From IMG/VR virus record IMGVR_UViG_3300046007_007152, positions 24,560 to 88,559 of that record: a stretch of DNA of 64,000 bases; one strand, 5' to 3'. The notes under the pieces were generated by a model. That model saw only the letters and a program-made list of their open reading frames with translations, made no database searches and had not been told where the DNA came from. The number at the start of each line of letters is the position of its first letter. Within the stretch, counting starts at the first letter, position 1. Origin of the DNA: a virus. Of the stretch, positions 48,727-64,000 are shown piece after piece. A program made the position numbers and the translations under genes.

Positions 48727-48754
48727 GATAAATTCTCCAACTCCTTCGTTTAAA

Positions 48755-48826
48755 CTGGAGCGACAGGATTTGAACCTGTAACCGATCCGTTAACAGCGGA
48801 TTGCACTACCGTTGTGCTACGCTCCA
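48755..48826 (-). tRNA. tRNA-Asn(GTT)
   Basis: 72-nt tRNA. Acceptor TGGAGCG/CGCTCCA, anticodon stem ATCCG/CGGAT, loop CTGTTAA giving GTT, T-arm ACAGG-TTCAAAT-CCTGT. Confidence 0.92.
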
Positions 48827-48874
48827 TCTCATGAATTTCTCTATGGCAATTTGCACATGTGAATTAAAATTTAA

Positions 48875-48948
48875 CGTCCCTGGCAGGATTTGAACCTGCA
48901 ATCTACGGCTTAGAAGGTCGTTGCATTATCCTGTTATGCTACAGGGAC
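48875..48948 (-). tRNA. tRNA-Arg(TCT)
   Basis: 74-nt tRNA. Acceptor GTCCCTG/CAGGGAC, loop CTTCTAA giving TCT, T-arm GCAGG-TTCAAAT-CCTGC. One A-C mismatch in the anticodon stem. Reads AGA, a codon frequent in the AT-rich genes. Confidence 0.9.
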
Positions 48949-48974
48949 GGATGTTCCTTTTTCAAGGAACACAA

Positions 48975-49002
48975 ATTATATCCACTGTCGTTCACAAGTC
49001 AA
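48975..49002 (-). promoter_or_regulatory. Sigma70-type promoter for tRNA-Arg and tRNA-Asn
   Basis: Minus strand TTGACT (48997-49002), 16-bp spacer, TATAAT (48975-48980). A leader hairpin GTTCCTT-GAAA-AAGGAAC (48953-48970) follows before tRNA-Arg. Transcription may continue into the purA group. Confidence 0.75.
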
Positions 49003-49328
49003 GTTGTAAGTTTAAGACCAGCACCAGCACCGACTGGTCCGTTATTTGGAACGACTAGACCAGAAAGCATTCCTAGATATTGATTCTTCATCTCTTCATC
49101 AATATCAACAACAAACATAACAAAACGATCATCAATGGTAATTCCGTGTGTGTGCTGATTTTCGCTAACATATGGCATCCACTTTGCAAAAGCCAACTTA
49201 CCTTGTCCCATTGGGAACAAAATTGCTGAATCTGTTAGAATGTGAATTACACCGTTTACATCTTTGTCACTACGGTACTTACAAATAATTTCTTCACCCG
49301 AACTCAAACGAACCATTTTAATTGACAT
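48999..49328 (-). CDS. Sm/Lsm-like small phage protein (tentative)
   Basis: 109-aa protein. The opening MVRLSSGEEIICKYRSD followed by GVIHILTDSAILFP and LAFAKWMPYV resembles the strand pattern of phage Sm-like barrels (a conserved 'L-x-[ST]-G-E-E-[IV]-I' start). It could bind RNA, but a generic small beta-barrel is equally possible. It precedes the tRNA-Arg promoter, which lies at its 3' end. Confidence 0.45.
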   Translation of the reverse strand: MSIKMVRLSSGEEIICKYRSDKDVNGVIHILTDSAILFPMGQGKLAFAKWMPYVSENQHTHGITIDDRFVMFVVDIDEEMKNQYLGMLSGLVVPNNGPVGAGAGLKLTT

Positions 49329-49338
49329 AATATCTCCA

Positions 49339-49560
49339 TTATTGGCAATTACAATTGCCTAAAAGTTTTTCCCAAATACTGCATTTACGTTTTTCTACAG
49401 GAACTCCGCAGCAAAGTTCTGTATAACCGCGAACATCGTTTACTAACTGAGGATTTTCTTTTGCTCTTGTATGAGCACGAACAATTTCACCGTTAGTTAA
49501 TAGAAGATCAATACATCTTCCATCAATTTGTACTTTAGCATAAAAATAATTTATTTCCAT
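49339..49560 (-). CDS. Small hypothetical protein, cysteine-rich end
   Basis: 73-aa protein with ATG at 49558-49560 and a strong GGAGG site. The N-terminal half is a small beta fold (INYFYAKVQIDGRCIDLLLTNGEIVRAHTRA); the C-terminus has six cysteines (CCGVP, KCSIW, GNCNC), perhaps a metal site. A late CATAAATA box lies upstream. No family recognised. Confidence 0.5.
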   Translation of the reverse strand: MEINYFYAKVQIDGRCIDLLLTNGEIVRAHTRAKENPQLVNDVRGYTELCCGVPVEKRKCSIWEKLLGNCNCQ

Positions 49561-49576
49561 AAAAATCCTCCAACAA

Positions 49577-49584
49577 TATTTATG
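49577..49584 (-). promoter_or_regulatory. Late-type promoter box
   Basis: CATAAATA on the minus strand, followed by TTGTTGGAGG and the 49560 start. Confidence 0.45.
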
Positions 49585-49592
49585 GGAATAAA

Positions 49593-49618
49593 AAAGGTGC
49601 TGTTTGAGCAGCACCTTT
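49593..49618 (-). terminator. Terminator downstream of HTH gene
   Basis: AAAGGTGCTG/CAGCACCTTT 10-bp stem. On the minus strand a T-run (TTTTTTATT) follows. Ends the 49647-49916 transcript. Confidence 0.8.
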
Positions 49619-49646
49619 AACCATTCACATGGTTTTATTTAATTGT

Positions 49647-49916
49647 TCAGAGAACGTAACGGCTACCGTCGTTGCGGAAACCGTAGGTACGATCACCCGG
49701 ATGAGTGTCGATCATGACATAACGAGTCTTTCCGGTTGAAGAAACCTCAGTCTCGATTTGCCAATTACCAAAACGCTCAACGAGTTCACGAATGTTGCTG
49801 ATCGTTGCGCGAAGATTGCGAACGCCAAAACGGGCGCGCGCTTCAGATGCGGTAAGAGTATTACCGTTTGCAAGATAGTTGATGACCTTGCGAGTCTTGC
49901 TAAGAGTATTAGCCAT
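49647..49916 (-). CDS. Helix-turn-helix DNA-binding protein
   Basis: 89-aa basic protein with a winged-HTH-like N-terminus: VINYLANGNTLTASEARARFGVRNLRATISNIRELVERFG, where helices 2 and 3 fall at TASEARARFG and NLRATISNIREL. A wing strand follows (WQIETEVSSTGKTRYVMID). Small proteins of this kind occur in T4-like phages. It has its own sigma70-type promoter and a leader with a 9-bp inverted repeat, so it may be an early, self-regulating transcription factor. AAGGA precedes the ATG. Confidence 0.65.
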   Translation of the reverse strand: MANTLSKTRKVINYLANGNTLTASEARARFGVRNLRATISNIRELVERFGNWQIETEVSSTGKTRYVMIDTHPGDRTYGFRNDGSRYVL

Positions 49917-49930
49917 AGTAAAGAATCCTT

Positions 49931-49970
49931 TTGAGACTTGTTTCTAAAAAGAGTTTGTTGTAAGTCTCAA
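49931..49970 (-). promoter_or_regulatory. 9-bp perfect inverted repeat in HTH gene leader
   Basis: TTGAGACTT ... AAGTCTCAA separated by 22 bases, between the promoter at 49998-50025 and the start at 49916. It could be a DNA operator or an mRNA hairpin controlling the HTH gene. Confidence 0.45.
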
Positions 49971-49997
49971 CAACCAACATTCCCTTGATTTGAGTTT

Positions 49998-50025
49998 ATT
50001 ATAGTAAATATTTAATTTGTGTCAA
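49998..50025 (-). promoter_or_regulatory. Sigma70-type promoter for the HTH gene
   Basis: Minus strand TTGACA (50020-50025), 16-bp spacer, TATAAT (49998-50003). Leader of about 80 nt to the ATG at 49916. Confidence 0.75.
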
Positions 50026-50191
50026 CAGAATTGTTCCAAGAAAGTGCTACTTCCTCGGCTTTTGTTCTGTCACGAAACGCAAACTTCTTAATGATATCAC
50101 ATCCCTTGTAACAAACCACGAAAAAGATAATATCTTTCTCGTTATCGTCAACAAAAGTAATATGAATCTCAGATGTTTTTGTAAGTGACAT
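50012..50191 (-). CDS. Small hypothetical protein after tRNA-Glu
   Basis: 59-aa protein with ATG 3 bases after the 3' end of tRNA-Glu. No ribosome binding site fits in that gap, so translation would depend on tRNA processing. Strand-rich N-terminus (IHITFVDDNEKDIIFFVVCYKG), then a helix. No family recognised. Confidence 0.45.
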   Translation of the reverse strand: MSLTKTSEIHITFVDDNEKDIIFFVVCYKGCDIIKKFAFRDRTKAEEVALSWNNSVDTN

Positions 50192-50193
50192 AG

Positions 50194-50267
50194 TACGCCC
50201 ACGGGGACTCGAACCCCGACTCACCGCCTTGAAAGGGCGGGGATTTAGCCAGTTAATCTATGAGCGC
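50194..50267 (-). tRNA. tRNA-Glu(TTC)
   Basis: 74-nt tRNA. Acceptor GCGCTCA/TGGGCGT with G-T pairs, anticodon stem CCGCC/GGCGG, loop CTTTCAA giving TTC, T-loop TTCGAGT. Confidence 0.9.
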
Positions 50268-50278
50268 ATAACAAACAA

Positions 50279-50351
50279 TGCCTCCAGTAGGGATCGAACC
50301 TACGACCTATCGGTTAAAAGCCGAATGCTCTACCATCTGAGCTATAGAGGC
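50279..50351 (-). tRNA. tRNA-Lys(TTT)
   Basis: 73-nt tRNA. Acceptor GCCTCTA/TGGAGGC, loop CTTTTAA giving TTT, T-arm GTAGG-TTCGATC-CCTAC. Confidence 0.93.
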
Positions 50352-50372
50352 GTCTTCACTTGTACGGTGTTA

Positions 50373-50400
50373 ATTATATCGCTCAATTTTTTTATGTCAA
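50373..50400 (-). promoter_or_regulatory. Sigma70-type promoter for tRNA-Lys and tRNA-Glu
   Basis: Minus strand TTGACA (50395-50400), 16-bp spacer, TATAAT (50373-50378), about 22 bases before tRNA-Lys. Confidence 0.8.
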
Positions 50401-50472
50401 TCTATTTTTTACTTCTTTTAGTATTTTTTGAGTAATTGTTTATGACGCTTCTTCATAACAATATGTAAAAAT

Positions 50473-50621
50473 AAAAAAACCCAACCATTACTGGCTGGGG
50501 AGTCGTTTACCATGACTCTTTGGGGAGGCGTCGATTCTCCTTACGACGAGAGTTTTATTTTCGATGCATATCAGATTACTCTAAACTGTATGCATCCACT
50601 GCGTTTAAGGAGTGCAGGCTC
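50473..50621 (-). ncRNA. Candidate phage small RNA with promoter and terminator
   Basis: About 140-nt region with no open frame. Minus-strand hairpins: GATGCATA/TATGCATC (50563-50596), CGTCG/CGACG (50529-50548), GAGTC/GACTC (50500-50518), then a terminator CCCAGCCA/TGGTTGGG (50480-50499) followed by a run of seven T. A promoter-like ATGACA, 16-bp spacer, TATAAG lies at 50622-50649. Independent expression as a structured RNA is likely. No RNA family recognised; target unknown. Confidence 0.6.
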
Positions 50622-50649
50622 CTTATAATATAATAATATACTGTGTCAT
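50622..50649 (-). promoter_or_regulatory. Sigma70-like promoter of candidate small RNA
   Basis: Minus strand ATGACA (50644-50649), 16-bp spacer, TATAAG (50622-50627). Spacer length equals that of the tRNA promoters in this part of the window. Confidence 0.5.
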
Positions 50650-50683
50650 AGAGTTAAATACATGGTAATTTCCATTCATCTAA

Positions 50684-50767
50684 TGGGATAGATGGGAATC
50701 GAACCCATATGCCCTTGCGGGCGGCAGATTTTGAGTCTGCTGCGTCTGCCTGTTCCGCCACATTCCC
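50684..50767 (-). tRNA. tRNA-Leu(CAA), two acceptor mismatches
   Basis: 84-nt class II tRNA. Anticodon stem GCAGA/TCTGC, loop CTCAAAA giving CAA, long variable arm (GCCCGCAAGGGC), T-arm ATGGG-TTCGATT-CCCAT. In the acceptor stem (GGGAATG with CTATCCC) positions 5-68 (A-A) and 6-67 (T-T) do not pair, so it may be poorly functional or need a special fold. Confidence 0.8.
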
Positions 50768-51350: not shown

Positions 51351-51511
51351 CTTCCTAGTTTTTGCTTAACAATTTTTGGCAAACAACCTTCTCGTTCAAG
51401 TCGATCAAGTGTCTTTTTGCTTGCATTTAGTAGCAATAGTTGATCACGACGCTTTCGAAGTTTGCGGCGACGACTAATTCTAAGTTTGTTTTTCTTATCA
51501 GTGCTGTTCAT
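51347..51511 (-). CDS. Small basic protein, 54 aa
   Basis: 54-aa highly basic protein ([19 protein letters not shown], then a leucine-rich helix and [11 protein letters not shown]). It overlaps the GMP reductase stop and the next start by ATGA junctions, so it is translated in the guaC operon. A nucleic-acid or ribosome contact is plausible by charge only. Confidence 0.6.
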
Positions 51512-52572
51512 AATGAATCTCCATAAACTGTATTGAGTTGACGATTAACACGAATGAATGTACAACATTTTGGTAAATCTTTCAAGTGTCTTGCACCAAC
51601 ATAAGTGCAAGCAGATCGAACACCACCCAAAATTTGTTGAATAGTTTCTTTTACCGGACCTTTTGCATCCAAGTATACCGTTTTACCTTCTGCCGCTCTA
51701 TATTGTGCGACTCCACCAAAATGTTTATCCATACAACTTTTTGATGACATTCCATAAAATGGAATTTTAATATTTCCATTTTCATCTTGTAGTGAATTCA
51801 TTTCAGACTCGTCATGCCCTGCCAACATACCACCTAGCATAACAAAGTCTGCTCCACCACCAAATGCTTTTGCAACATCTCCGGGTATCGTACAACCACC
51901 GTCTGCAAGAACGTGTGCGCGAAGCCCATGTGCTGCATCGGCACATTCAATAATGGCAGACAGTTGAGGATAACCGACGCCAGCAACTTTTCTAGTAGTA
52001 CAAACACTTCCAGAACCAATACCAACCTTTACTATGTCTGCTCCTGCAAGAACTAGTGCTTCTGTCATTTCAGGAGTTACAACATTTCCTGCAATAATGA
52101 TTTTATTTGGGAATAATTGCCGAATGCGTTTTACATAATCAACAAATTTTTCTGTATATCCATTTGCGACATCAATGCAAATGAATTTTACGTTGGTACA
52201 TATTTTTAAAATATCTGTTGCTTTTGAGATTTCTTGATATGGATCATGTGTCATACCAAGAGTATAAACTAAATTCTCACAATGTAGATAGCCATTTACT
52301 AATGAATTTTCGTAATTAGTAATCCACTCCTGAACCGAATAGAATTTATTAATACCACATAGCATATAGTATGGCTCTAGACTTTTTGCCATACTAAAAG
52401 TACCAACACCTTCCATATTTGAAGCAATGATTGGTACTCCTTCCCACGTTAATCCACTTGGGAATTTAAAATTCCTGTTTAGTTCTACTTGCTTTCTACT
52501 AACAAGTGTGCTGCGTTTTGGGCGAATTAAAACATCACTAAAATCTAACTTAATGTCATTTTCAATTTTCAT
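51508..52572 (-). CDS. guaC: GMP reductase
   Basis: 354-aa enzyme of the IMPDH/GMP reductase family, close in length to E. coli GuaC (347). It converts GMP to IMP with NADPH, releasing ammonia. Markers for GMP reductase rather than IMPDH: no CBS domains, [21 protein letters not shown] with the catalytic Cys, [33 protein letters not shown], and [13 protein letters not shown]. Together with the PurA-like enzyme it gives a GMP to IMP to adenylosuccinate route. In a phage this would shift purines from G to A, which suits the AT-rich genome. The order with small genes downstream suggests one operon. Confidence 0.93.
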
Positions 52573-53045: not shown

Positions 53046-53366
53046 TTATTCTCCTAATAAAACCTTAAATGCGTAAATTGAGTCATAATAAAAACTTTTC
53101 CATTCTCTGCTTGAAATGTCCCATACAGGTATTATGTCTTTATATCCATGTGGATTTTCTATTACACCGTGAATAAGAGATTCATATTCTGATGGAAGTT
53201 TTTCAAAATTTCTAGTACATTTTAGCGAACGAAATTGTCCATTCAATTTTTTTCTAAAAAGAACTTGGCAAGTATATGTTTCTAATTGCTTTACGATCCA
53301 TCTTGGAGATGGGTCTATTATTCTTTTTGTTTCTTTGTTGTTCTTATCAACAACAATAGCAATCAT
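53046..53366 (-). CDS. SH3-like small phage protein
   Basis: 106-aa protein with LNGQFRSLKCTRNFEKLPSEY and VWDISSREWKSFYYDSIYAFKVL, the pattern ('DG..R.m..T....iP ... vwd...w+.f....i') of small SH3-barrel proteins common in T4-like phages. Function unknown. GAGG precedes the start; one base overlaps the next gene upstream. Confidence 0.5.
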   Translation of the reverse strand: MIAIVVDKNNKETKRIIDPSPRWIVKQLETYTCQVLFRKKLNGQFRSLKCTRNFEKLPSEYESLIHGVIENPHGYKDIIPVWDISSREWKSFYYDSIYAFKVLLGE

Positions 53367-54073
53367 TATAACACCTCATCCCAGACACCTCCAACTATTT
53401 TTGGAGAATTTAAATTACCAACAGATTGTTCTGATGCATCTACTCCAAATATATTACCTAAAGCATTTGCATGATGAACTATTGTTCTTCTATGATGCTC
53501 TAGTTCTCTTATATTCTTTTCGTGTTCTGCCGCTAATTCTTGGTGATGATGTGCTTGTAATTGATGTTCTTCTATGCTGTTTCCGAGAGGAACAGATCTA
53601 CTCAAAGAACTTAGTGTGTTTTGTTTCATTGTTTTCAATGAATCAACTGCCATTCTGTGAGATTGTCTCCATCTATCTCTGTGTTTTTCTATTGCTGAAG
53701 ATAAACCATCGTGTAATGTTTTTAAATACAAAAGATACTTAGATGGTTTTTTACTAAAAGCACGTTCAACTAAATGTTTTACAGAATGTTCTTGTTTAGG
53801 GTGATGTTGAGGAAGTGGAATTAATGACTTGCCAATTCCTAACTGGTGTGTTAGAACTTCGTTTCCTCTATACCCACCCTGAATAGAGTATTCTGCGATT
53901 CCATTTTTGTGTATTGGTTTATTAGTAAAGAAACCTAAAGAAGTTAAATGTTTAGAAATAGGAAGGTGAACGTCGCCATGAATTGTTTCATGGTGAAATC
54001 GATCAGCGATATACCGTGGTGAGGATTTGAAATCTCTCATTTCTTTTAATAACTTTTTTGTTTTTTCATTCAT
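53366..54073 (-). CDS. Hypothetical His-rich basic protein, possible internal head protein
   Basis: 235-aa basic, histidine-rich protein. The N-terminus MNEKTKKLLKE has an LKE at residues 9-11, a weak match to the capsid-targeting motif seen in the following genes. The C-terminal half is a long charged helix (EEHQLQAHHHQELAAEHEKNIRELEHHRRTI). No enzymatic motif. It overlaps the metalloprotease gene by 8 bases. Confidence 0.5.
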   Translation of the reverse strand: MNEKTKKLLKEMRDFKSSPRYIADRFHHETIHGDVHLPISKHLTSLGFFTNKPIHKNGIAEYSIQGGYRGNEVLTHQLGIGKSLIPLPQHHPKQEHSVKHLVERAFSKKPSKYLLYLKTLHDGLSSAIEKHRDRWRQSHRMAVDSLKTMKQNTLSSLSRSVPLGNSIEEHQLQAHHHQELAAEHEKNIRELEHHRRTIVHHANALGNIFGVDASEQSVGNLNSPKIVGGVWDEVL

Positions 54074-54434
54074 AAAAATCTGGATTTTGTTTTCCGTACA
54101 TTCTTACAATTCTACCAGCAATTGCATTTGCTTCGTCTTCATGTGGAGATCCAGTTGAACCATCCAAGTCATCTGTCTTTTTGTGTTGAGCGGCATGAAC
54201 CATCTCATGTGCTATGCTTCTACAAATATCAAATGCTGCTCTTCCTTTGATATAGACTTTTATTTCACCATTTTTCATATTATAACTTGCTGTAGTCATA
54301 TCCGGTTCTCTCTCTGGTAGAAGAATAACTTTTGGTACTTCAAGGTTTAAAAACTCGGCAGCAAATTTAACAAAGTCATCTATTCGACCTTGTTTCTCGT
54401 ATTGTTCGACTATAAATTTTACGAAATGTTTCAT
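54066..54434 (-). CDS. Zinc metallopeptidase-like protein with capsid-targeting-like N-terminus
   Basis: 122-aa protein with IAHEMVHAAQ (HExxH zinc site) and a downstream Glu in SPHEDEANAIAGRI as likely third ligand, typical of gluzincin or SprT/IrrE-like small metalloproteases. The N-terminus MKHFVKFIVE-QYE fits the T4 capsid-targeting pattern (M-K-x-[FY]-x-x-[FY]-[IL]-x-E). If cleaved after IVE by the prohead protease, the rest would be packaged and injected. A GATAAATA late box lies upstream. Confidence 0.65.
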   Translation of the reverse strand: MKHFVKFIVEQYEKQGRIDDFVKFAAEFLNLEVPKVILLPEREPDMTTASYNMKNGEIKVYIKGRAAFDICRSIAHEMVHAAQHKKTDDLDGSTGSPHEDEANAIAGRIVRMYGKQNPDFYE

Positions 54435-54439
54435 AAAAG

Positions 54440-54447
54440 TATTTATC
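54440..54447 (-). promoter_or_regulatory. Late-type promoter box upstream of metallopeptidase gene
   Basis: GATAAATA on the minus strand, 5 bases before the ATG at 54434. Confidence 0.4.
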
Positions 54448-54456
54448 CAAAAAGAA

Positions 54457-54505
54457 ACCTCCCGATGCGTAGAGCGGGAGGTCGGGCTTGAGATACGATC
54501 TCAAG
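54457..54505 (-). terminator. Double hairpin terminator
   Basis: On the minus strand CTTGAGAT/ATCTCAAG is followed by ACCTCCCG/CGGGAGGT and then TTCTTTTTGG. It would end the transcript of the 54627-55118 group before the next late promoter box. Confidence 0.6.
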
Positions 54506-54516
54506 CGGGGTTACTA

Positions 54517-54630
54517 TTATTTATGTTTGTTTCTACCACAATTACAAGATTTTTTTGTAAGTTTTGGGTCTGGCTTTGAAATAGGAACAGATCTAAAATT
54601 TAGTGGTTTGTTTGGTTTTTTTGGTGTCAT
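54517..54630 (-). CDS. Very small basic protein, 37 aa
   Basis: 37-aa proline/lysine-rich peptide (MTPKKPNKPLNFRSVPISK ... SCNCGRNKHK) whose ATG overlaps the stop of the DUF6321-like gene (ATGA). Basic with a CxC near the end. Short, but coupling and codon use support it. It may also be an internal head or DNA-binding peptide. Confidence 0.5.
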   Translation of the reverse strand: MTPKKPNKPLNFRSVPISKPDPKLTKKSCNCGRNKHK

Positions 54631-55118
54631 TCGCAGTTCCATTTTCGTAGAGACTTATTAATACGAGAATCTGGATCTCTTGCGGTCTTTGCGGAAGTTA
54701 GTTTAGCTTTCATGCCTTTCATTCGACGGCAAAAAGACAAACGACGTTTTGCTTTCTTTGAACCTGGCTTTAGTTTGCTTGGTTCGGTTGTTACTGCTGT
54801 TTGTAACTTTGACCCAGGATTTGCTCTGCGATATGAAGCGACACCTTTTTTATTCAAACCACCTTCTGGATCTTTCCCCTCTTTGCGTTGCCATGCAGCA
54901 GACTTTGCTTCTTCTAATTGGGTTTGTTCTTCCATTGACTTAGCCAACTTGACAATTTTTTCGGCTGCTTTTTCGTCGTGAGTAAAGTGTTTGTTTGCTT
55001 CATCAGCGGTTGGTTTCTTGCTCTTAATGTGTCTTCCAACCAACTTTGCAATTTTTTCTGACTCAGAAGCAGCGGCCTCTTTCATGATACCACGGATAAT
55101 AGTCTCTGGGTTCTTCAT
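54627..55118 (-). CDS. DUF6321-like basic protein
   Basis: 163-aa basic protein. The C-terminal 90 residues (SAAWQRKEGKDPEGGLNKKGVASYRRANPGSK, then SKKAKRRLSFCRRMKGMKAKLTSAKTARDPDSRINKSLRKW) match the layout of the DUF6321 domain found in phages and bacteria, thought to be DNA-associated. The N-terminus MKNPETIIRGIMKEAA is a helical tag partly like the capsid-targeting motif of its neighbours. GGAG precedes the ATG. Confidence 0.7.
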   Translation of the reverse strand: MKNPETIIRGIMKEAAASESEKIAKLVGRHIKSKKPTADEANKHFTHDEKAAEKIVKLAKSMEEQTQLEEAKSAAWQRKEGKDPEGGLNKKGVASYRRANPGSKLQTAVTTEPSKLKPGSKKAKRRLSFCRRMKGMKAKLTSAKTARDPDSRINKSLRKWNCE

Positions 55119-55145
55119 ATTATTCTCCTAGTATATGTAGTTTTT

Positions 55146-55153
55146 CATAAATA
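55146..55153 (+). promoter_or_regulatory. Late-type promoter box upstream of nucleotidyltransferase-like gene
   Basis: CATAAATA on the plus strand, 5 bases before the ATG at 55159. Confidence 0.45.
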
Positions 55154-55158
55154 CTGGG

Positions 55159-55875
55159 ATGAAGCATTTTAGCCTATATCTTCAAGAAGAGTCCTTATCA
55201 TTAAAACAGCATGATACGCTCAATCCAAAGTTTTGGACAAAGGATTCACTTAAACCAATAGTAAGAAAAAAACTATTAGAAATAGGCAAAACATGGGCAG
55301 AGTTTGCCAATATTCCAGACGAAGCAATCAAAGACATAATATTCGTCGGTGGAAATGCAAATTACAATTATACAGAACATTCCGATGTTGATGTTCACGT
55401 TGTAATAGACAAAAACAAACTTCCAGATTGCCCTGAAGTACTAGAAGATTATTTTCAGGACAAAAAACAATTGTGGAGTCTTACACATAACATTCAAGTA
55501 TATGCCCATGATGTTGAACTTTATGCACAAGACATGACACTCAAGACTCCAAAGAATCAAGGTTCATTTAGTCTGTTAAAAAATAAATGGATAACAAAAC
55601 CAAAGCAAGTTGAAGTCAAAATAGACGATGAACATATTGGTAAAAAGGTACGAGAACTAACACACAGAATTCAAAACTTAATTTCATCGAATGCAAAAGA
55701 CGAATCATTTAAGGCTCTCAAAACAAAAATAAAAAACATGAGAGCCGCTGGATTGAAACGATCAGGTGAATTTTCTTTTGAAAATCTAGTATTCAAAGAA
55801 CTGAGAAACAGCGGCATACTAGACAAAATGAACAACTACATTAAAACTAGAGAAGACAAAAAACTCAGTCTTTAA
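55159..55875 (+). CDS. Nucleotidyltransferase-fold protein with capsid-targeting-like N-terminus
   Basis: 238-aa protein of the Pol-beta-type nucleotidyltransferase fold: FVGGNANYNYTEHSDVDVHVVID at about residues 66-88 gives the GG/S start and the D-x-D metal pair (DVDVHV). A third acidic residue may lie in the YAHDVELYAQ strand. The N-terminus MKHFSLYLQE-ESL fits the capsid-targeting pattern with an LQE cleavage site. If so it would be an injected enzyme modifying a host nucleotide, RNA or protein; the target is unknown. It is the only plus-strand gene in this cluster. Confidence 0.7.
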   Translation: MKHFSLYLQEESLSLKQHDTLNPKFWTKDSLKPIVRKKLLEIGKTWAEFANIPDEAIKDIIFVGGNANYNYTEHSDVDVHVVIDKNKLPDCPEVLEDYFQDKKQLWSLTHNIQVYAHDVELYAQDMTLKTPKNQGSFSLLKNKWITKPKQVEVKIDDEHIGKKVRELTHRIQNLISSNAKDESFKALKTKIKNMRAAGLKRSGEFSFENLVFKELRNSGILDKMNNYIKTREDKKLSL

Positions 55876-56251
55876 TGTGTTTGCTGATTAGTGTTGGTGC
55901 AACCAACTTGGTTTGTATGGTTCTTTGACCAGCAAAGTGCGCCTTAGCAAGGCGATGTGATCCATCCACTATATTACCAGAAGAATCCACATGAATGGGG
56001 TAACTCATGTCTGCTCTATCCACCCTAGCCATAAATGGTTCCGATGGTTTCTGTAATTGATCACCCAATCTACCCTCTTTTGTTCCAACATCTTGGTTGA
56101 CACGAATCAAATCTTTGACTCGTCTTGTTTGATTTCTTGTTTGTGTTCCACGAATCAGAGTATCTACTGGTGCCACTCCTCTTTCGTCACCATAGAACTG
56201 ACCTACAATTTTTCCCTTTGCTTCATTCAGATATTGAATAAACGATTTCAT
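55865..56251 (-). CDS. ParB/Srx-like nuclease-fold protein with capsid-targeting-like N-terminus
   Basis: 128-aa protein. The C-terminal half reads YPIHVDSSGNIVDGSHRLAKAHFAG, the ParB/sulfiredoxin core ('P..v...G.IvDG.HR..A....G'), which binds or hydrolyses nucleotides in ParB, Srx and some phage nucleases. The N-terminus MKSFIQYLNE-AKG closely matches T4 internal protein capsid-targeting sequences with an LNE cut site. It overlaps the convergent nucleotidyltransferase gene by 11 bases at its 3' end. Confidence 0.7.
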   Translation of the reverse strand: MKSFIQYLNEAKGKIVGQFYGDERGVAPVDTLIRGTQTRNQTRRVKDLIRVNQDVGTKEGRLGDQLQKPSEPFMARVDRADMSYPIHVDSSGNIVDGSHRLAKAHFAGQRTIQTKLVAPTLISKHIKD

Positions 56252-56574
56252 AAGTCGTAGTCTACTTTCTGAAACTTCGCGCCTTCCGGCAATTTTTTTA
56301 CGAACTCATGAACTGCGTTACGAATATTTTCTTTGCTCGTCACACGCTCTGAAACCTCACCTTTTTCTGGGTGAGTATAAGTGACAGTTGCAGACCACTC
56401 TTGTTCTTCATTCAGAAACTGTTTGAAAGACATGATGTTTCTCTCTTCCTTCATATGTTTAAAGTATTCAACTTGACGAAGCCGTTTCACAGCACCAGCG
56501 CGAGTCGGAGAACAACCTAGGTTTCTACCCTTCTTACTTGTAACGCAATACTGTGAGCCACGCTTTACGATCAT
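56248..56574 (-). CDS. Two-part small protein with internal capsid-targeting-like start
   Basis: 108-aa frame. Residues 1-45 (MIVKRGSQYCVTSKKGRNLGCSPTRAGAVKRLRQVEYF) form a small basic domain recurrent in phage and bacterial proteins ('...W.V.S.G.k.lg.y.t...A..RLrqve'). After it, an internal Met begins MSFKQFLNE-EQEW, which matches the capsid-targeting pattern, preceded by AAGGAAGAGAG. So either this is a fusion or a second 61-residue protein is started inside the frame. The second part looks like a small alpha-beta domain. Confidence 0.55.
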   Translation of the reverse strand: MIVKRGSQYCVTSKKGRNLGCSPTRAGAVKRLRQVEYFKHMKEERNIMSFKQFLNEEQEWSATVTYTHPEKGEVSERVTSKENIRNAVHEFVKKLPEGAKFQKVDYDL

Positions 56575-57380
56575 TTTCTTTTCTTTTTTCCCTGTACTGT
56601 GAGAGTAATATCTCTAGCAGCCTCTTGATACGGTTCTCCATAAACAATATCATCATGCTTTCTTGGATTATAATTACCCATTTTACTTAGATTAATTGTC
56701 TTTCGTTTAAAATCTTTTGGATGTGGAAGATCTTTTGCAGTTTTCATTCTTGCCAAGACTTTTTTATTCATCCCAAGTTCTCTTAATCTTGTTTTTACAT
56801 TTCTTACAGTTGACCATCCATCTTCTATGCCAGAATGTATGTCTTCATAATCAGCATGTTGATCCAAATTTAATCTCAGGTTTGGATGGTTCGGATGGGA
56901 AAAATACACAGCACTTGTTGAACGACTAGCCAACTCACTTGATCTTCGGATTCTAACTGGTCGCATCTTGGCTAATCGCGCCCAGATAGATCTTCCGCCT
57001 TTTGTTTGTTGTTCTCCACTTTCTACTGTGCCAACTTTATCTGCGATCATAGCATAGACTTTAGGTACTAGATTTTTCACTAGTGCTTTTTTTCCACGAT
57101 GGGCCGCAGTCATTGTAGGAAAGTCAATACGAATTGGTGAATTTCTTCCACTCCTTCTAATGTCAAACTGACCAACCTGTTTTCCACCATGTCGCACCGA
57201 CACGATTTCGCCCGCGAGATCATCATCTTCGTGGTGATGAACTTCATATGGTCCTATTCTCCCCAGTTTTGTGCTTTTTGATCTTGGTATTTTCGGAGAA
57301 ACTGTATGCTCTCTTGCACCACCGCCATCTTGGTACTCTGGCATGTCCTCCGCAAGAAGATATTTTTTGAATCGTAGCAT
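56571..57380 (-). CDS. Basic protein with GNAT-like middle and capsid-targeting-like N-terminus
   Basis: 269-aa basic protein. N-terminus MLRFKKYLLAE-DMPEYQDGG has an LAE site. The middle (GKQVGQFDIRRSGRNSPIRIDFPTMTAAHRGKKALVKNLVPKVYAMIADKVG, then GGRSIWARLAKM) parallels degenerate GNAT-fold phage proteins ('v.p..RGk.l...Ly..i......w.kL'). The acetyl-CoA loop is poorly conserved, so activity is doubtful. The end is lysine-rich. Likely an internal head protein. Confidence 0.5.
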   Translation of the reverse strand: MLRFKKYLLAEDMPEYQDGGGAREHTVSPKIPRSKSTKLGRIGPYEVHHHEDDDLAGEIVSVRHGGKQVGQFDIRRSGRNSPIRIDFPTMTAAHRGKKALVKNLVPKVYAMIADKVGTVESGEQQTKGGRSIWARLAKMRPVRIRRSSELASRSTSAVYFSHPNHPNLRLNLDQHADYEDIHSGIEDGWSTVRNVKTRLRELGMNKKVLARMKTAKDLPHPKDFKRKTINLSKMGNYNPRKHDDIVYGEPYQEAARDITLTVQGKKKRK

Positions 57381-57988
57381 TAGTACTTTTTCTTTTGTTG
57401 GTTGCCACTCATTGGTTTTGATTGAGATTGAGGAGGAGGAAGTTCTGGTTTGAATGCAGGAACTTCAGATGCACTTCTTCCCATTGCTTCTGCTGCACCA
57501 GCCACCTGAGAACGAACAATGTGTCCGTGCAGATTTCGAAGTTTTCTTGACATATATGGATTGTTTAAACCAACAGAAGGTTTGCCAACCAAGGATCTAT
57601 TAAATGAAACCGCATCTGCTGCTCTATTCATAAGAACAGGATTTCCTCTAATACGTTCCATTCCTCCTTGTCTTACTCTTGAAGCAAGATCACCGAGATC
57701 ATTCCACTTTTGAATATTCTTTGCCACAGGAAAGAGATCTTTATGTGTGGTTCTCAGTGGATACTTAAACCCACTTTTGGCTTGGTTGATTTTGTCTATG
57801 TTAAGAGCAATGTCTTGTGCTTTTATTGATTGACCACCAATATCAGCAGTCATTGCTCTCGCAGCCAGACGACCTTCTGCACCACTAATAGCAGTTTGAA
57901 CATCCGGCGACCATCGGCGGTTCGACTGAGCCAATCTCATCGCTCTTCTTGCTTTTACTTCTAATAAAAAATCTTTGGATAATCTCAT
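57380..57988 (-). CDS. Basic protein with capsid-targeting-like N-terminus
   Basis: 202-aa basic protein without a known family. N-terminus MRLSKDFLLE-VKARRAMRL gives an LLE cut site. The rest is rich in Arg, Ala and Gln and mostly helical, with a proline/glutamine-rich end (ELPPPQSQSKP). It starts the minus-strand cluster, preceded by an exact TATAAATA box, and shares one base with the next gene. Confidence 0.55.
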   Translation of the reverse strand: MRLSKDFLLEVKARRAMRLAQSNRRWSPDVQTAISGAEGRLAARAMTADIGGQSIKAQDIALNIDKINQAKSGFKYPLRTTHKDLFPVAKNIQKWNDLGDLASRVRQGGMERIRGNPVLMNRAADAVSFNRSLVGKPSVGLNNPYMSRKLRNLHGHIVRSQVAGAAEAMGRSASEVPAFKPELPPPQSQSKPMSGNQQKKKY

Positions 57989-57996: not shown

Positions 57997-58004
57997 TATT
58001 TATA
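57997..58004 (-). promoter_or_regulatory. Exact T4 late promoter box
   Basis: TATAAATA on the minus strand, 8 bases upstream of the start at 57988. Likely promoter of the internal-protein-like cluster 57988 to 55865. Confidence 0.55.
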
Positions 58005-58200
58005 GGGACTCCAATCTAGGGGTCCCCTACTGGGAGTCTCAGGGGTAGGGGAGGTAGGGGTAGGAGTCCCTTAAAGGATTTTTAGGGGGGAGTCTCATGG
58101 GTGGGAGTCCCATGTTCAGAAAGTCTTTAAGAATTCTTTGAGGGGGGCTTCGCTAGCGGGAGGCTCCAACGGGAGTCCCATCGCTCCCTATACTGTTCGG
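58005..58200. repeat. GGGAGTC(T/C)C iterated repeats, G-rich boundary region
   Basis: At least six copies of GGGAGTCTC or GGGAGTCCC (58032, 58088, 58103 and 58171 clear; 58063 as AGGAGTCCC; 58158 as GGGAGGCTCC) and one inverted copy at 58005-58012. Several sit in hairpins (CATGGG...CCCATG). The region marks the switch from AT-rich to GC-rich DNA. Origin iterons, an operator array or a recombination site are possible. The 58005-58372 interval holds no gene; 58217-58236 carries a direct repeat AATGCATA. Confidence 0.55.
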
Positions 58201-58315
58201 ACAGGAGCAAACTCACAGCAATGCATAACAATGCATACGCTAAACACATGCTAGATTTGAGATGAAGTATGTGCTTCTCCCACGATTATCCCTAGTTTCC
58301 TAGATCGATATCCGC

Positions 58316-58344
58316 TTGCATTCAAGTGGCATTTCCAGTACAAT
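58316..58344 (+). promoter_or_regulatory. Sigma70-type promoter upstream of GP88 gene
   Basis: TTGCAT (58316-58321), 17-bp spacer, TACAAT (58339-58344). A nine-codon upstream frame MHQTKGLLL starts 3 bases on and its TGA overlaps the GP88 ATG. Confidence 0.65.
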
Positions 58345-58372
58345 CTATGCACCAAACGAAAGGACTACTGCT

Positions 58373-59122
58373 ATGACTATCGCTCTCGCTCAACTTGCTC
58401 CCATTCACGCTCCCTGCGCTACCACCACGGACATCGATCCGATTCATGACGGCTACGCACACAGTTACGCGGATCACCAACTCTGTGATGCATCGTGGGG
58501 TACGCTCGATGCTCTCACTGGCGGCTTGTCGTTGCCGTCGAAGATGCCGGGTCATTCGTTCTCGATCAGCGCGAAGCGTTGCAAGGTTGGCGCTGCGCTG
58601 CGCAAGGTCGCTGGCTCTACTTGCAGCAAGTGCTACGCTCTGAAGGGTCGGTATGTGTTTCCGAATGTGGCTGCTGCAATGGAGCGCCGGTATCAGAAGA
58701 TGCGCTCTAACTCCACGGTGTGGGCTGCTGCAATGATCGCCAGCATTCGTAAGACTGGCGATAAGCACTTTCGCTGGCACGACAGCGGAGACTTGCAGGG
58801 GATGAATCACCTCTTCGCCATCACCGTGATCGCGGAAGCCACTCCGTGGGTGCAGCACTGGCTGCCCACTCGGGAGTATGCGTTGGTGCGTGAGTATCTG
58901 CGCCAGTATCACCACTTCCCGGTGAATCTCACGGTGCGCGTGTCTGCGCCCATGATCGGGTCAGTCGCCAGTGAGTGGGAGAACAGCAGCAGCGTCGATG
59001 CTACTCGCACTCCCATGACTGCGTGGGTCGATTGCCCTGCGTCGAAGCAGGGAAACAAGTGCATGGACTGCCGCGCTTGTTGGGATAAGGATGTCGAAGT
59101 CGTCAACTACAAGAAGCACTAA
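58373..59122 (+). CDS. GP88-family phage protein
   Basis: 249-aa protein of the 'Gene product 88' phage family. Markers: GHSFSISAKRCKVGAALRK, GSTCSKCYALKGRYVFPNV, AAAMERRYQKM, then KHFRWHDSGDLQGMNHL and WLPTREYALVREYL. The function is unknown; conserved Cys, His and Asp residues suggest a metal-dependent enzyme. The C-terminal CMDCRACW adds a second cysteine site. The ATG at 58373 has AAAGGA upstream. First gene of the GC-rich block, with codon use unlike the AT-rich part. Confidence 0.82.
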   Translation: MTIALAQLAPIHAPCATTTDIDPIHDGYAHSYADHQLCDASWGTLDALTGGLSLPSKMPGHSFSISAKRCKVGAALRKVAGSTCSKCYALKGRYVFPNVAAAMERRYQKMRSNSTVWAAAMIASIRKTGDKHFRWHDSGDLQGMNHLFAITVIAEATPWVQHWLPTREYALVREYLRQYHHFPVNLTVRVSAPMIGSVASEWENSSSVDATRTPMTAWVDCPASKQGNKCMDCRACWDKDVEVVNYKKH

Positions 59123-59144
59123 CTCTAACCAAAGGACTCATACC

Positions 59145-59378
59145 ATGAGCAACAACACCAACAACGCTACTGCCAATCACGAACCCGGAGGCGATTATGT
59201 CTTCTACACTCCTCCCACCACTCCCGATGGTGATCGGGACTACCGTGCTGAGATCACTCGGTGGAAGGCGTACCGCGTGAAACTCGGTTCGATTGATCAA
59301 TACCCCATCGATGCGCTGATCATCATCGACAACCTACTCGATGCGCTCGATGCTGCGCGGAAGTCTCGGAATCAGTGA
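59145..59378 (+). CDS. Small protein, paralogue of 59728-59985
   Basis: 77-aa protein. YVFYTPPTTPDGDRDYRAE and IIIDNLLDALDAARKSR match the neighbour at 59728-59985 (YEFIYNPPLTPAGDRDWRKE, VVIDNLLDALDAARKER), so the two are tandem paralogues flanking a zinc-ribbon gene. The ATG is preceded by AAAGGACTCATACC, a leader repeated in this cluster. Function unknown. Confidence 0.6.
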   Translation: MSNNTNNATANHEPGGDYVFYTPPTTPDGDRDYRAEITRWKAYRVKLGSIDQYPIDALIIIDNLLDALDAARKSRNQ

Positions 59379-59416
59379 TTCCGACAGTCTCAACCAAAAC
59401 AGAAAGGACTCATACC

Positions 59417-59704
59417 ATGAGCAAGAAGAGCATTCTCAACAACTGGCGTCGTCGCTTCCGTTCGCTCTTGGATTCCACATTGTCCATCGAGTGTGTATTC
59501 TGCGGAAACAGTCTGATTGGCGACGGGCCCGCAACTCCCGTCATCTGCCTTGATTGTTTCTCGCATCCCGGTGTGATCTTGAATGATTGCACCATCTGCA
59601 TGAACTGCGCCGCGGATGAGATGTCGTCCGGTACACTCGTCACCAAGACAACGCACCCCGATGGGTTCACTTGCGCGGAATGCTGCAAGGTTGTCACCGT
59701 CTAA
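59417..59704 (+). CDS. Small zinc-ribbon protein
   Basis: 95-aa protein with four cysteine pairs: CVFC, CLDC, CTICMNC and CAECC. A basic helix comes first (MSKKSILNNWRRRFRSLL). Likely to bind two zinc ions; could be a nucleic-acid or protein-binding ribbon. The start follows the repeated AAAGGACTCATACC leader. Confidence 0.6.
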   Translation: MSKKSILNNWRRRFRSLLDSTLSIECVFCGNSLIGDGPATPVICLDCFSHPGVILNDCTICMNCAADEMSSGTLVTKTTHPDGFTCAECCKVVTV

Positions 59705-59727
59705 CCCAAACGAAAGGACTCAATCAC

Positions 59728-59985
59728 ATGAGCAACAACACCCAACCCCGTTATGAGTTCATCTACAATCCGCCTCTCACTCCTGCGGGCGACCGCGACT
59801 GGCGGAAGGAGCTTGATGTGTGGAAGCGCGGCCGCAACAGCGGAAACGCACCGCTGGACATCACCACGATTGTCGTGATCGACAATCTGCTCGACGCGCT
59901 CGACGCAGCGCGAAAGGAGCGCGACGATGCGCGTTCGGCTGGAGCGTGGAAGTACATCGGAAACCCCAATGATCGCATCCCATGA
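59728..59985 (+). CDS. Small protein, paralogue of 59145-59378
   Basis: 85-aa paralogue of 59145-59378 with a C-terminal extension (DDARSAGAWKYIGNP). Shared core: NPPLTPAGDRDWRKEL and VIDNLLDALDAARKE. Starts after the repeated leader (CGAAAGGACTCAATCAC). Function unknown. Confidence 0.6.
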   Translation: MSNNTQPRYEFIYNPPLTPAGDRDWRKELDVWKRGRNSGNAPLDITTIVVIDNLLDALDAARKERDDARSAGAWKYIGNPNDRIP

Positions 59986-59994
59986 GGTGCGATT

Positions 59995-60016
59995 GTTGAT
60001 AGTATTATTATCGGAC
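59995..60016. repeat. 22-bp repeat, copy 1 (candidate operator)
   Basis: Identical to 62421-62442. The core GATAGTATTATTATC is an imperfect palindrome. Each copy lies some 45-60 bases upstream of a sigma70-type promoter, so it may bind a common regulator. Confidence 0.6.
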
Positions 60017-60051
60017 TCAAAAACTTTTTGATTTTCCCCTGCTTTCCCCAC

Positions 60052-60080
60052 TTGCACCGATTCCCGTCTTCCGGTATAAT
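60052..60080 (+). promoter_or_regulatory. Sigma70-type promoter for kinase-like gene
   Basis: TTGCAC (60052-60057), 17-bp spacer, TATAAT (60075-60080). The ATG at 60090 is 9 bases further, so a leaderless mRNA is predicted. Confidence 0.75.
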
Positions 60081-60089
60081 GAAACGACT

Positions 60090-60734
60090 ATGGCTACCAC
60101 CAAGTTCAACCCCACCTATCGTCCGTTCAAGACCTCGCACCACGCGATCATGGGCGCGGTCGATCACTACATGAGCGATGCGCCGCTGCGCTTCACCAGC
60201 GGAGGCGCGCAAGCGTCGTTCATTCGCAACAACGCCCGCGCGAATACGCCGCGTGAATACGGCATCAAGTTGTTTCCCAATGTTTCGCAGGCGTTCGCCG
60301 CGTACCAGCGTCAGAAGATTGCCGCCGACGCTGGCGCTGCTCCGCCGGTGCGCCGCATGGTGTGCTTCTCGCATCCCGGTATGGTGTACAATCGGGAGCA
60401 GGATCGGTATGTTCGCGCCACCGTCCTCAGTTGGGGGTATCAGACTTGCGTGGCGTACTCCATCGGTATCGAAGCGATGGAAGTGCCGTGGGACATGGAA
60501 GAGATGACGAATCCTCCCCTCAGCATGATCCCGGAGCGGCGTACTCGCGAGTTGTACAAGCTGATGCGTAGTCTCAGCACGGCTGGCACGCAGATCGACG
60601 GAAAGCCGCTCGGTACGATTCGCCGTCGTTCGCGGCGCATGGTTTACGATCTGCACCGTGACAACATCGGTTTCTGGCGCAAGCGCCCCGTTGTCATCGA
60701 CTTCGGTTACCACATCGTTCAGGAGGCCTGCTAA
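60090..60734 (+). CDS. Compact protein-kinase-like protein
   Basis: 214-aa protein with the signature motifs of a kinase fold. YGIKLF at residues 58-62 gives the beta3 Lys60; a helix follows (AYQRQKIAADAGAAPPV) where the usual C-helix Glu is not obvious. The catalytic loop is DLHRDN (Asp187 to Asn192, exactly the D-x4-N spacing of kinases) and the metal loop is IDFG (Asp204), 12 residues on. It is small, so the N-lobe is minimal. It could be an active early kinase or an ABC1/APH-like relative; the substrate is unknown. First gene of a rightward operon. Confidence 0.65.
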   Translation: MATTKFNPTYRPFKTSHHAIMGAVDHYMSDAPLRFTSGGAQASFIRNNARANTPREYGIKLFPNVSQAFAAYQRQKIAADAGAAPPVRRMVCFSHPGMVYNREQDRYVRATVLSWGYQTCVAYSIGIEAMEVPWDMEEMTNPPLSMIPERRTRELYKLMRSLSTAGTQIDGKPLGTIRRRSRRMVYDLHRDNIGFWRKRPVVIDFGYHIVQEAC

Positions 60735-60847
60735 TGACAGAGACTCTGCTCTCTTTCGGCGTTTACTGCGTGATTGCGTTCTTCGTTCTCGCAATCTTCT
60801 TCGTCCTCTACATTCTCGCTCTCATTCTTTCGGAGGTAATCTCATGA
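60734..60847 (+). CDS. Single-span membrane peptide, 37 aa
   Basis: 37-aa peptide with one long hydrophobic helix (about residues 8-31: FGVYCVIAFFVLAIFFVLYI). AGGAGG precedes the ATG; its start overlaps the kinase stop (TAATG), and its stop overlaps the next start (ATGA). Perhaps an early membrane effector; function unknown. Confidence 0.65.
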   Translation: MTETLLSFGVYCVIAFFVLAIFFVLYILALILSEVIS

Positions 60848-61221
60848 AGGTTTTCATCGTCAAGATCGACAACGGTAGTTCGACCGCTTGCCACGTTTTC
60901 AACAACGAAGCGGCCGCGAACGAGTTTCACGACAAGATGAGCCGCCACTACGACGCGGTTGATCCCGAGACTTGGGTTCTCGCTCCGGAGGAGTGTGAAG
61001 TTCACGACGGAGTGGCAACCGCGCTCGTCAACGAGTTGGATGGCGAAGAGTTGCGGTACGAACCCGAATACTGCGACAACTGCGGTGTTCAGGTGTTTGC
61101 CACTTCACGCTACAGCGTTCCGATTCTCCCGGTGAACATCGCGTCTGCCAATGCGGGAGAGTCCGCGGTTCTTTGTCCTGAGTGCTGGCAGACGCACATC
61201 TGCAAGTGGAGGAAGAAGTAA
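60844..61221 (+). CDS. Zinc-ribbon hypothetical protein
   Basis: 125-aa protein. N-terminal part MKVFIVKIDNGSSTACHVFNNEAAANEFHDKM looks like a small alpha-beta unit; the C-terminus has CDNC (about residue 79) and CPEC (about 114), one zinc ribbon. It is translated in the kinase operon. GGAGG precedes the start. Function unknown. Confidence 0.6.
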   Translation: MKVFIVKIDNGSSTACHVFNNEAAANEFHDKMSRHYDAVDPETWVLAPEECEVHDGVATALVNELDGEELRYEPEYCDNCGVQVFATSRYSVPILPVNIASANAGESAVLCPECWQTHICKWRKK

Positions 61222-61364
61222 TGAAAATCCGAGTTCGTTTCGTGCATGATGCTCTTCGCGAAGGAGAGCGCCTGCGTCCCAAGACTTGGGGAAAGAAGGA
61301 TCGCAATCCCCGCGCCGACCGTCGGCGTATCAAGCGAGCCATTCACAGAGGAGATTTCGAATGA
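61221..61364 (+). CDS. Very small basic protein, 47 aa
   Basis: 47-aa basic peptide (MKIRVRFVHDALREGERLR ... RADRRRIKRAIHRGDFE). TAATG and ATGA junctions at both ends place it in the operon. No family recognised. Confidence 0.55.
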   Translation: MKIRVRFVHDALREGERLRPKTWGKKDRNPRADRRRIKRAIHRGDFE

Positions 61365-61654
61365 GCGCAATGAACCGCATGTCCCGTGTCATCACCTTCC
61401 GTATGCCGTCGGCGCCTGGATGGAAGGTGCAGTTCAACATGAACGATCAGCACTTCACGATGATGCGTTTCGGTGAAGTGAAGGATCGTTGGCAGTTGGA
61501 ACGCGAAGCCGATTGGCGTGGTCAGCGGCGCGATCTAGAACTGAACGAAATCGAGAACGAAGCGGAGCGCAAACTCCAGCTCGAGACACTTGCATGGGAA
61601 CACGACCGGCATGCCGATGACGCCGATTTCACCGATCTCTACCCCAGCTACTGA
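61361..61654 (+). CDS. Small hypothetical protein
   Basis: 97-aa protein. N-terminus looks like a small beta fold (VITFRMPSAPGWKVQFNMND), then a charged helix (LEREADWRGQRRDLELNEIENEAERKLQLE). Start overlaps the previous stop. AGAGGAG lies upstream. No family recognised. Confidence 0.5.
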   Translation: MSAMNRMSRVITFRMPSAPGWKVQFNMNDQHFTMMRFGEVKDRWQLEREADWRGQRRDLELNEIENEAERKLQLETLAWEHDRHADDADFTDLYPSY

Positions 61655-61681
61655 GGAGCCACAAAACCGATGAACATCATC

Positions 61682-61710
61682 TTGCGTCAACTGATGAAGG
61701 TTGCTACAAT
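61682..61710 (+). promoter_or_regulatory. Sigma70-type promoter upstream of 61766 gene
   Basis: TTGCGT (61682-61687), 17-bp spacer, TACAAT (61705-61710). The next good start is the ATG at 61766 with AAAGGA upstream. Confidence 0.6.
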
Positions 61711-61765
61711 CATGGGGTACAAGTGGGAAACGTATCCCACCGACAACTCCAACAAAGGAAACCGA

Positions 61766-62008
61766 ATGACTGAGACTGACATGATTGTGAACACGTTCCG
61801 CGACTATCTGCGCCTCCTCTCTTCTAGCGTCCGAAACGCTTCGGAGAGCAAGCAGCGCGACATTTTCGCCCGTGCTCGCACCGTCCGTCAGATCGCTCGT
61901 TCCGCCGGTATGCTCCCGCGTCTTGATCGCGCCATCGCGCACGACAAGACCACGAGCACCGTGTTCGTGAACAGCGACTTCAACTGGACGAAGTACGCGA
62001 ACGCTTGA
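61766..62008 (+). CDS. Small hypothetical protein
   Basis: 80-aa helical protein (MIVNTFRDYLRLLSSSVRNAS, ARARTVRQIARSAG). The ATG at 61766 was chosen for its AAAGGA site; a longer frame from 61670 would cross the promoter. No family recognised. Confidence 0.5.
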   Translation: MTETDMIVNTFRDYLRLLSSSVRNASESKQRDIFARARTVRQIARSAGMLPRLDRAIAHDKTTSTVFVNSDFNWTKYANA

Positions 62009-62015
62009 TCTCTCC

Positions 62016-62064
62016 CGTGTGTGTATGGGGAGGGAGTGCCGCTACTTCTCCCTCCCCGCACACG
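62016..62064 (+). promoter_or_regulatory. Long hairpin before acidic gene
   Basis: CGTGTG ... GGGGAGGGAG pairs with CTCCCTCCCC ... CACACG, about 16 bp with a small bulge. No clear T-run follows, so it may be an attenuator or mRNA-stability element between 62008 and 62101. Confidence 0.5.
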
Positions 62065-62100
62065 CCTCATCAAATGAGCCTTGATCAGAAAGACTTTGAT

Positions 62101-62316
62101 ATGGCAAACGGACGATACATCCTTGACTGGCGTAACGACCCGCATTACTACTCGGCGGTGAATTTGGATCGGGATGTTCCCGATTACGATCCCGACGAGG
62201 ATGAGGACGAAAACGAAGATTGGGAAGACCTGGAGGACGACACACATGACGGTGGTAGCCATGATGAGTCCGAAGGCAACGATGATTGGTCTGGCCCTGA
62301 CGAAGATCTAGACTGA
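62101..62316 (+). CDS. Strongly acidic protein, possible DNA mimic
   Basis: 71-aa protein; after MANGRYILDWRNDPHYYSAV nearly half the residues are Asp or Glu (for example DYDPDEDEDENEDWEDLEDD). This charge is like that of DNA-mimic anti-restriction proteins, but so far only composition supports it. Start at 62101 is chosen; an in-frame ATG at 62074 is possible. Ends before a strong terminator. Confidence 0.5.
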   Translation: MANGRYILDWRNDPHYYSAVNLDRDVPDYDPDEDEDENEDWEDLEDDTHDGGSHDESEGNDDWSGPDEDLD

Positions 62317-62383
62317 CACCATCGGGAGCGCCGCGGGGCGCTCGCCCAATCCAAACAAACCTAGTGCATCTAGGCAGTCCCGC

Positions 62384-62410
62384 CCCCCTACTGCGAAGTG
62401 GGGGTTTTTT
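62384..62410 (+). terminator. Strong rho-independent terminator
   Basis: CCCCCTACT / AGTGGGGG with a GCGA loop and TTTTTTATTT after it. Ends the rightward operon before the AAA+ gene. Confidence 0.85.
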
Positions 62411-62420
62411 ATTTGTCCGT

Positions 62421-62442: not shown

Positions 62443-62485
62443 GTAACGTTATCGGACATGCGCCGTTTGCTTACGTTTTAGGGGG

Positions 62486-62514: not shown

Positions 62515-62523
62515 GGGCGCACT

Positions 62524-63990: not shown

Positions 63991-64000
63991 GTTGATTTCC

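Follow-up and report, generated by a model that had tools for sequence, protein, structure and literature searches.

Within a 64,000-nucleotide stretch of viral DNA (the window: bases 24,560-88,559 of the 88,559-base IMG/VR contig IMGVR_UViG_3300046007_007152), we analysed a gene cluster at window positions 53366-57988, for which a sequence-only reading had noted that six proteins begin with short tags resembling those that direct internal proteins into the head of phage T4. The source phage is a T4-like environmental virus of bacteria, and all six tag peptides are encoded at the genes concerned. Judged from the sequences, the tags are genuine and cannot be put down to chance, and the tagged proteins are very likely packaged into the phage head and processed by a gp21-type protease. 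We regard the cluster as a putative cassette of head-cargo genes: each product would bear a T4-type capsid-targeting sequence (CTS; aromatic or hydrophobic residues at about position 4 and at 7, L/I at 8 and E at 10) that would bind the scaffold core during prohead assembly and so enclose the cargo; a gp21-type S77 protease would cut after (L/I)-x-E, as in the capsid protein, and the freed enzymes (a metallopeptidase, a nucleotidyltransferase (NTase), a GNAT-like protein and others) would remain in the DNA-filled head, from which they would probably enter the host with the DNA and act ahead of any phage gene expression. Packaging is strongly supported in silico by the tag, the protease, a matching cleavage motif and virions of related phages that contain tagged enzymes and an NTase homolog; cleavage in the source phage, injection and a role in takeover or anti-defence are inferred. 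The genes, named by their start coordinates in the window (L002 denotes a stretch of the same contig outside it), are as follows:

53366..54073, minus strand: companion protein, 235 aa; weaker leader ...KLLKE/M
54066..54434, minus strand: tagged metallopeptidase, 122 aa; tag MKHFVKFIVE at 54405-54434
54627..55118, minus strand: DUF6321 protein (PF19846, 5e-19); leader MKNPETIIRGIMKE
55159..55875, plus strand: tagged Pol-beta-type NTase, 238 aa; tag MKHFSLYLQE at 55159-55188
55865..56251, minus strand: tagged protein, 128 aa, ParB/Srx-like by eye only (DGSHRL motif); tag MKSFIQYLNE at 56222-56251
56248..56574, minus strand: protein with internal tag, 108 aa; 47-residue prodomain (MIVKRG...), then MSFKQFLNE at 56407-56433
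56571..57380, minus strand: GNAT-like protein, 269 aa; tag MLRFKKYLLAE, longer by one residue, at 57348-57380
57380..57988, minus strand: basic protein, 202 aa, fold unknown; weak tag MRLSKDFLLE at 57959-57988
L002:15509-16525, outside the window: tagged protein, 338 aa, between gp21 and gp22; tag MLSFKQYLKE

The last entry and the weaker leaders on 54627 and 53366 extend the set of tag carriers beyond the original six.

The tag pattern compared with chance

In the 10-residue leader of T4 IPIII, residues 4 and 7 serve targeting, residues 8 and 10 serve processing and the cut falls after L/I-x-E (PMC9026906). The CTS layout is a propeptide some 10-19 aa long in which residues 4 and 7 are hydrophobic, residue 8 is L/I and residue 10 is E. 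It is present in 54066, 55159, 55865 and L002:15509; in 56571 it is offset by one residue, in 57380 it is degenerate and in 56248 it is internal. Using a regular expression for the functional positions 4, 7, 8 and 10 of IPIII, we obtained 5 matches among the 168 candidate ATG starts of the contig, where 0.24 were expected from a null of internal methionines pooled over 12 phages (9/6403; Poisson P about 5e-6). The profile search with known CTSs that the sequence-only reading had suggested gave the same picture: a position-specific scoring matrix (PSSM), for which tags from other phages alone (those of T4 and cyanophage proteins) served as training set, gave the five highest ranks among 95 open reading frames (ORFs) to 55865, 56248, L002:15509, 55159 and 54066, four of them cluster genes and 55865 with the highest tag score of the contig; after shuffling, 0.9 were expected and the maximum was 5 in 1000 shuffles. 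When a similar matrix was built from relatives of the window families plus one T4 leader, it picked out IPI, IPII and IPIII in T4 and gave one borderline match (5.0) in SPO1, a phage without S77. A chance likeness among AT-rich phage genes that share a low-complexity pattern at the N-terminus (M-K-x-F-...-E) could appeal to the shortness of the motif and to the poor fit of two of the six tags taken alone, but it is contradicted by the regular-expression P value, by the PSSM top five and by homologs in which F4 and the Glu are conserved at 29-49% identity: we rejected it as extremely improbable.

As an observation in its own right, a 54-aa T4 ORF (L134:18966-19130, NC_000866) starts MKTFKEFIKED and has the top T4 tag score, above IPII and IPIII; judging by this start, it is possibly an overlooked T4 internal protein.

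The prohead protease and the predicted capsid cleavage site

A gp21-type S77 protease is encoded at L002:16525-17196 (Pfam Peptidase_S77, 5.5e-31; PHROG 207 head maturation protease, 3.9e-72), and an S77 protease is linked to the cluster in contig G001 as well. Just outside the window lies a T4-type head module with portal, gp67/68-like proteins, gp21-like protease, the MLSFKQYLKE protein, gp22-like scaffold and gp23-like capsid protein, the names other than that of the protease being given by eye from sequence and gene order. The cleavage motif was checked on the major capsid protein (MCP), whose propeptide site, placed by alignment to T4, is predicted as YLVE/T (the slash marking the cut) and shares its form with the tag ends; the aligned sites in relatives are YLVE/A, MLTE/A, FLSE/A, FISE/A, FLAE/A and ILTE/A, with FLTE/A in T4. 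These data bear on the possibility that the cluster encodes ordinary early or middle products whose shared N-terminal helix serves docking or membrane association, or stems from duplication of the 5'-ends of genes. In its favour, a long distance separates the genes from the head module, the leader is a short amphipathic stretch and many neighbouring genes are of unknown function; such a helix would, however, leave unexplained the positional match to the T4 CTS and the identical form of the MCP site, as well as the tagged unrelated enzymes detected by mass spectrometry (MS) in the virions of three cyanophages, and we consider this explanation highly unlikely.

Tagged enzymes in cyanophage virions

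In S-CREM2 virions, 52 proteins were detected by MS (Table 3 of PMC10665884), and all four that are neither structural, lysis-related nor unnamed are tagged: a SAM hydrolase (MKDFDSFLEE), an APH/ChoK-like kinase (VKRFDAFLTE), a cytidylyltransferase (MKNFSSFLTE) and a Cas9-like nuclease (LRFASFMAE after a 16-residue lead). A first test with a regular expression, which overlooked tags at GTG starts or in internal position and let through non-specific matches, was not significant (3/50 vs 3/169, P=0.13); with a PSSM trained without S-CREM2, five of the six ORFs above the null maximum, a threshold chosen after the run, are found in virions (5/50 vs 1/169, P=0.0026). The cytidylyltransferase that is the only non-structural enzyme its authors report from S-SZBM1 virions starts MRFRQFIIE, the virion NMNAT of S-SCSM1 starts MKSFLQFLKE, and the S-CRM01 kinase found in virions (as cited in PMC10665884), the 821-aa PKN8 (L113:1508-3973), starts MISFDQFLSE. 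The window families are represented too: S-CREM2 ORF156 (gp156; 126012-126725) shares 50.6% identity with the 55159 NTase and was detected with six peptides, and ORF137 of the same phage, a homolog of 54627 in the DUF6321 region, is present in virions. An acetyltransferase of S-CRM01 (L202:3046-3441) is tagged as well (MKTFDEFLTE).

Several observations weigh against packaging and processing of the tagged proteins: two of the six tags, MLRFKKYLLAE (score 2.8) and MRLSKDFLLE (-0.4), are weak and unremarkable alone; gp156 has a degenerate leader (MKKLISE), so that its packaging may use another route; several high-scoring S-SZBM1 ORFs were undetected in virions; distant metallopeptidase homologs (L034-L066) are without the tag, yet their phages encode S77; and the authors of two of the cyanophage MS papers left contamination open. 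Contamination is made less likely by the fact that unrelated virion enzymes share the tag. With the S77 protease encoded, the MCP site of the same form, the conservation of the tag among homologs and the tagged cyanophage virion enzymes, the reading of head packaging and gp21 processing is well supported.

The individual predicted cargo proteins

The domain calls of the sequence-only reading fared unequally: those of the metallopeptidase and the NTase held, the GNAT-like call depends on Foldseek matches of a low-confidence model, and ParB/Srx found no tool match. The metallopeptidase 54066 has the zincin pattern of HExxH with a downstream Glu ligand (HEMVH...E(D/N)EANA), in which HEMVH and EANA are invariant in 10 homologs, whilst Glu10 is kept in 90%; there is also a weak Pfam M78 match, and the tag is retained in the relatives L011, L014, L015 and L020. 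Several distant homologs (L026-L038) start MKxLIxxILKEE, and this M..LI..ILKEE pattern is possibly a second CTS class.

For the NTase 55159, a match to phrog_36119 (8e-79) is accompanied by residues G64 G65, S75 D76 D78 and E120, invariant in 10 homologs and corresponding to the GG/SDxD/E pattern (GG..DxD..E) of Pol-beta nucleotidyltransferases; the Pfam NTP_transf_2 match is below the cut-off (0.0022), and PADLOC returned only a weak match, of the NTase to PDC-S09 (E=2e-4). The homolog in Caulobacter phage Cr30 (L080:3001-3708) starts MRKFSQLLED, with Asp at position 10, which in the T4 leader allows targeting and blocks processing (PMC9026906).

Protein 55865 matches a PHROG of unknown function (phrog_17560, 2e-11); no Pfam or PDB match was obtained, the ParB/Srx label coming from the DGSHRL motif, and searches of relatives gave no homolog. 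The Foldseek top matches of 56571 are almost all GNATs, but with E values of 1.6e-3 or worse, a model pLDDT of 50 and no Pfam match. The 56571 family has 5 canonically tagged homologs, all with the same M1, F4 and Glu despite identities of only 29-49%. Homologs of 56571 and 57380 carry canonical tags (MKSFSQFLQE, MKSFLQYITE, MKTFIQYITE, MKSFKQYLLE, MKSFLRYISE and MKTFLQYITE, the last on the 57380 homolog L012:671-1228); among sequenced isolates, neither protein has homologs. Of the weaker carriers, 54627 has the L/I-x-E leader IIRGIMKE, its S-SZBM1 homolog starts MKTFKQYITE and it is a probable further head cargo; 53366, in whose homologs ILKE, ILNE or LLTE stands at the corresponding position, is a possible one. 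L002:15509-16525, which gave no Pfam or PHROG match, is a candidate head cargo or core protein.

Being packaged and cut would also suit structural proteins, acting in the core or in head assembly like gp67/gp68 or IPIII, with enzyme-like folds unused in the host. T4 IPIII influences head assembly (PMC9026906), several of the window proteins are small and basic, and L002:15509 is placed between gp21 and gp22. The catalytic motifs of the metallopeptidase and the NTase are, however, invariant across diverged homologs, and the cargo set varies among related phages, as expected for accessory effectors; a purely structural role seems unlikely.

Internal tags, prodomains and fused cargos

The sequence-only reading had taken MSFKQFLNE of 56248 for an internal start. 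Comparison with the L014 ortholog reveals 10 synonymous and 2 non-synonymous changes over the 47 codons before the tag, which indicates that this prodomain is translated and under purifying selection: the alternative start was rejected and the tag is internal. In the NTase homologs L004-L007, a comparable MIV...GxK prodomain is followed by KTFKEHLEE or FSDFLKEE, with no start codon at the tag; the lead found in the metallopeptidase homologs L016-L018 is another one, MSWSKKYKKSIDCNNPKGFSQRAHCQGRKKR. The prodomains ahead of tags are small and lysine- or cysteine-rich (MIVKRG..., SKKYKKSIDCNNPKGFSQRAHC..., possibly DUF6321). Furthermore, L012:1947-3503 fuses a GNAT-like cargo to a second cargo, with the tag MKKFVQYISE at the junction, and a 90%-identical counterpart of the second cargo is a separate tagged gene in L092 (same locus as L013). 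Because tags occur both behind prodomains and at a junction, the tag appears to be a module that is not bound to the N-terminus, and a gp21 cut at the junction tag would separate the fused cargos. We tentatively propose that the CTS could be a portable, position-independent cassette, that the prodomains could act as extended core-binding modules and that gp21 might split multi-cargo polypeptides at internal tags, as an injected effector polyprotein. If true, S77-encoding phages would share a general system of effector delivery, and its members could be recognised from sequence.

A row of tagged genes is also seen in contig G002 (L105:1998-6243), including a 531-aa NTase with a lytic-transglycosylase-looking C-terminal domain, joined at LSLNE/S.

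Comparison with known systems

The kind of mechanism is already known from the T4 CTS and internal proteins. As in IPI, IPII and IPIII, we find the residue pattern at 4, 7, 8 and 10, the L/I-x-E cut, an S77 protease and several adjacent genes for diverse cargo with only the leader in common; unlike these small restriction inhibitors, the cargo here comprises peptidase, NTase and GNAT-like enzymes, and some tags sit inside the protein, following a prodomain or at the joint of two fused cargos. T4 Alt, an injected ADP-ribosyltransferase, is likewise a head-packaged enzyme that gp21 processes (packaging and processing being predicted for the proteins here), whereas no ADP-ribosyltransferase was found in the cluster, which encodes other enzyme folds. 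The virion enzymes of the cyanophages S-CREM2, S-SCSM1 and S-CRM01 carry the same tag and were detected in purified virions, but belong to other enzyme families except for the shared NTase family; the available portions of the papers on them mention no packaging signal. The polyvalent proteins (Iyer et al. 2017, PMC5512222), which have been proposed to be injected, overlap in domain repertoire (zincin metallopeptidase, Pol-beta NTase and ParB/Srx, the last by eye only here). They are giant multidomain polypeptides, in contrast to the separately tagged single-domain and apparently gp21-cut proteins of the cluster: disparate domains in one polypeptide are not found in the window, and only the relative L012:1947-3503 fuses two cargos.

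As each of T4 Ip1, Ip2 and Ip3 inhibits a GmrSD restriction enzyme of its own (PMC12373910), a counter-defence role is a reasonable guess, and the cluster supplies new candidates for enzymes of counter-defence or takeover. In the literature that we searched (subscription journals were mostly outside the search), we found no precedent for this set of enzyme cargos, for its occurrence across environmental phages that encode S77 or for tags used internally or in tandem. The analysis links the classical internal-protein pathway of T4 to environmental T4-like phages and to cyanophage virion enzymes that had been suspected as contamination. The short tag together with an S77 protease would serve as a sequence-based predictor of head-carried phage enzymes, so that one could test directly what phages deliver into the host ahead of gene expression.

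Genome context

GC content rises from about 0.38 to 0.55-0.59 at window 58000-64000 (the last 6 kb). Within these 6 kb, the part at about 58.0-59.2 kb shares 81% identity with contig G016, a carrier of the cluster too; on this ground a chimeric contig, as the GC jump at 58 kb might suggest, was rejected, and the GC-rich end looks like a genuine compartment of the phage. The gene at window 47725-48726 matches PurZ-type adenylosuccinate synthetase (phrog_1211, 1e-67) and that at 51508-52572 a dehydrogenase (phrog_9582, 6e-112; IMPDH/GMP-reductase-like by eye), which together may point to a base-modified (2-aminoadenine) genome. Nine tRNA genes lie on the minus strand at window 41251-50767.

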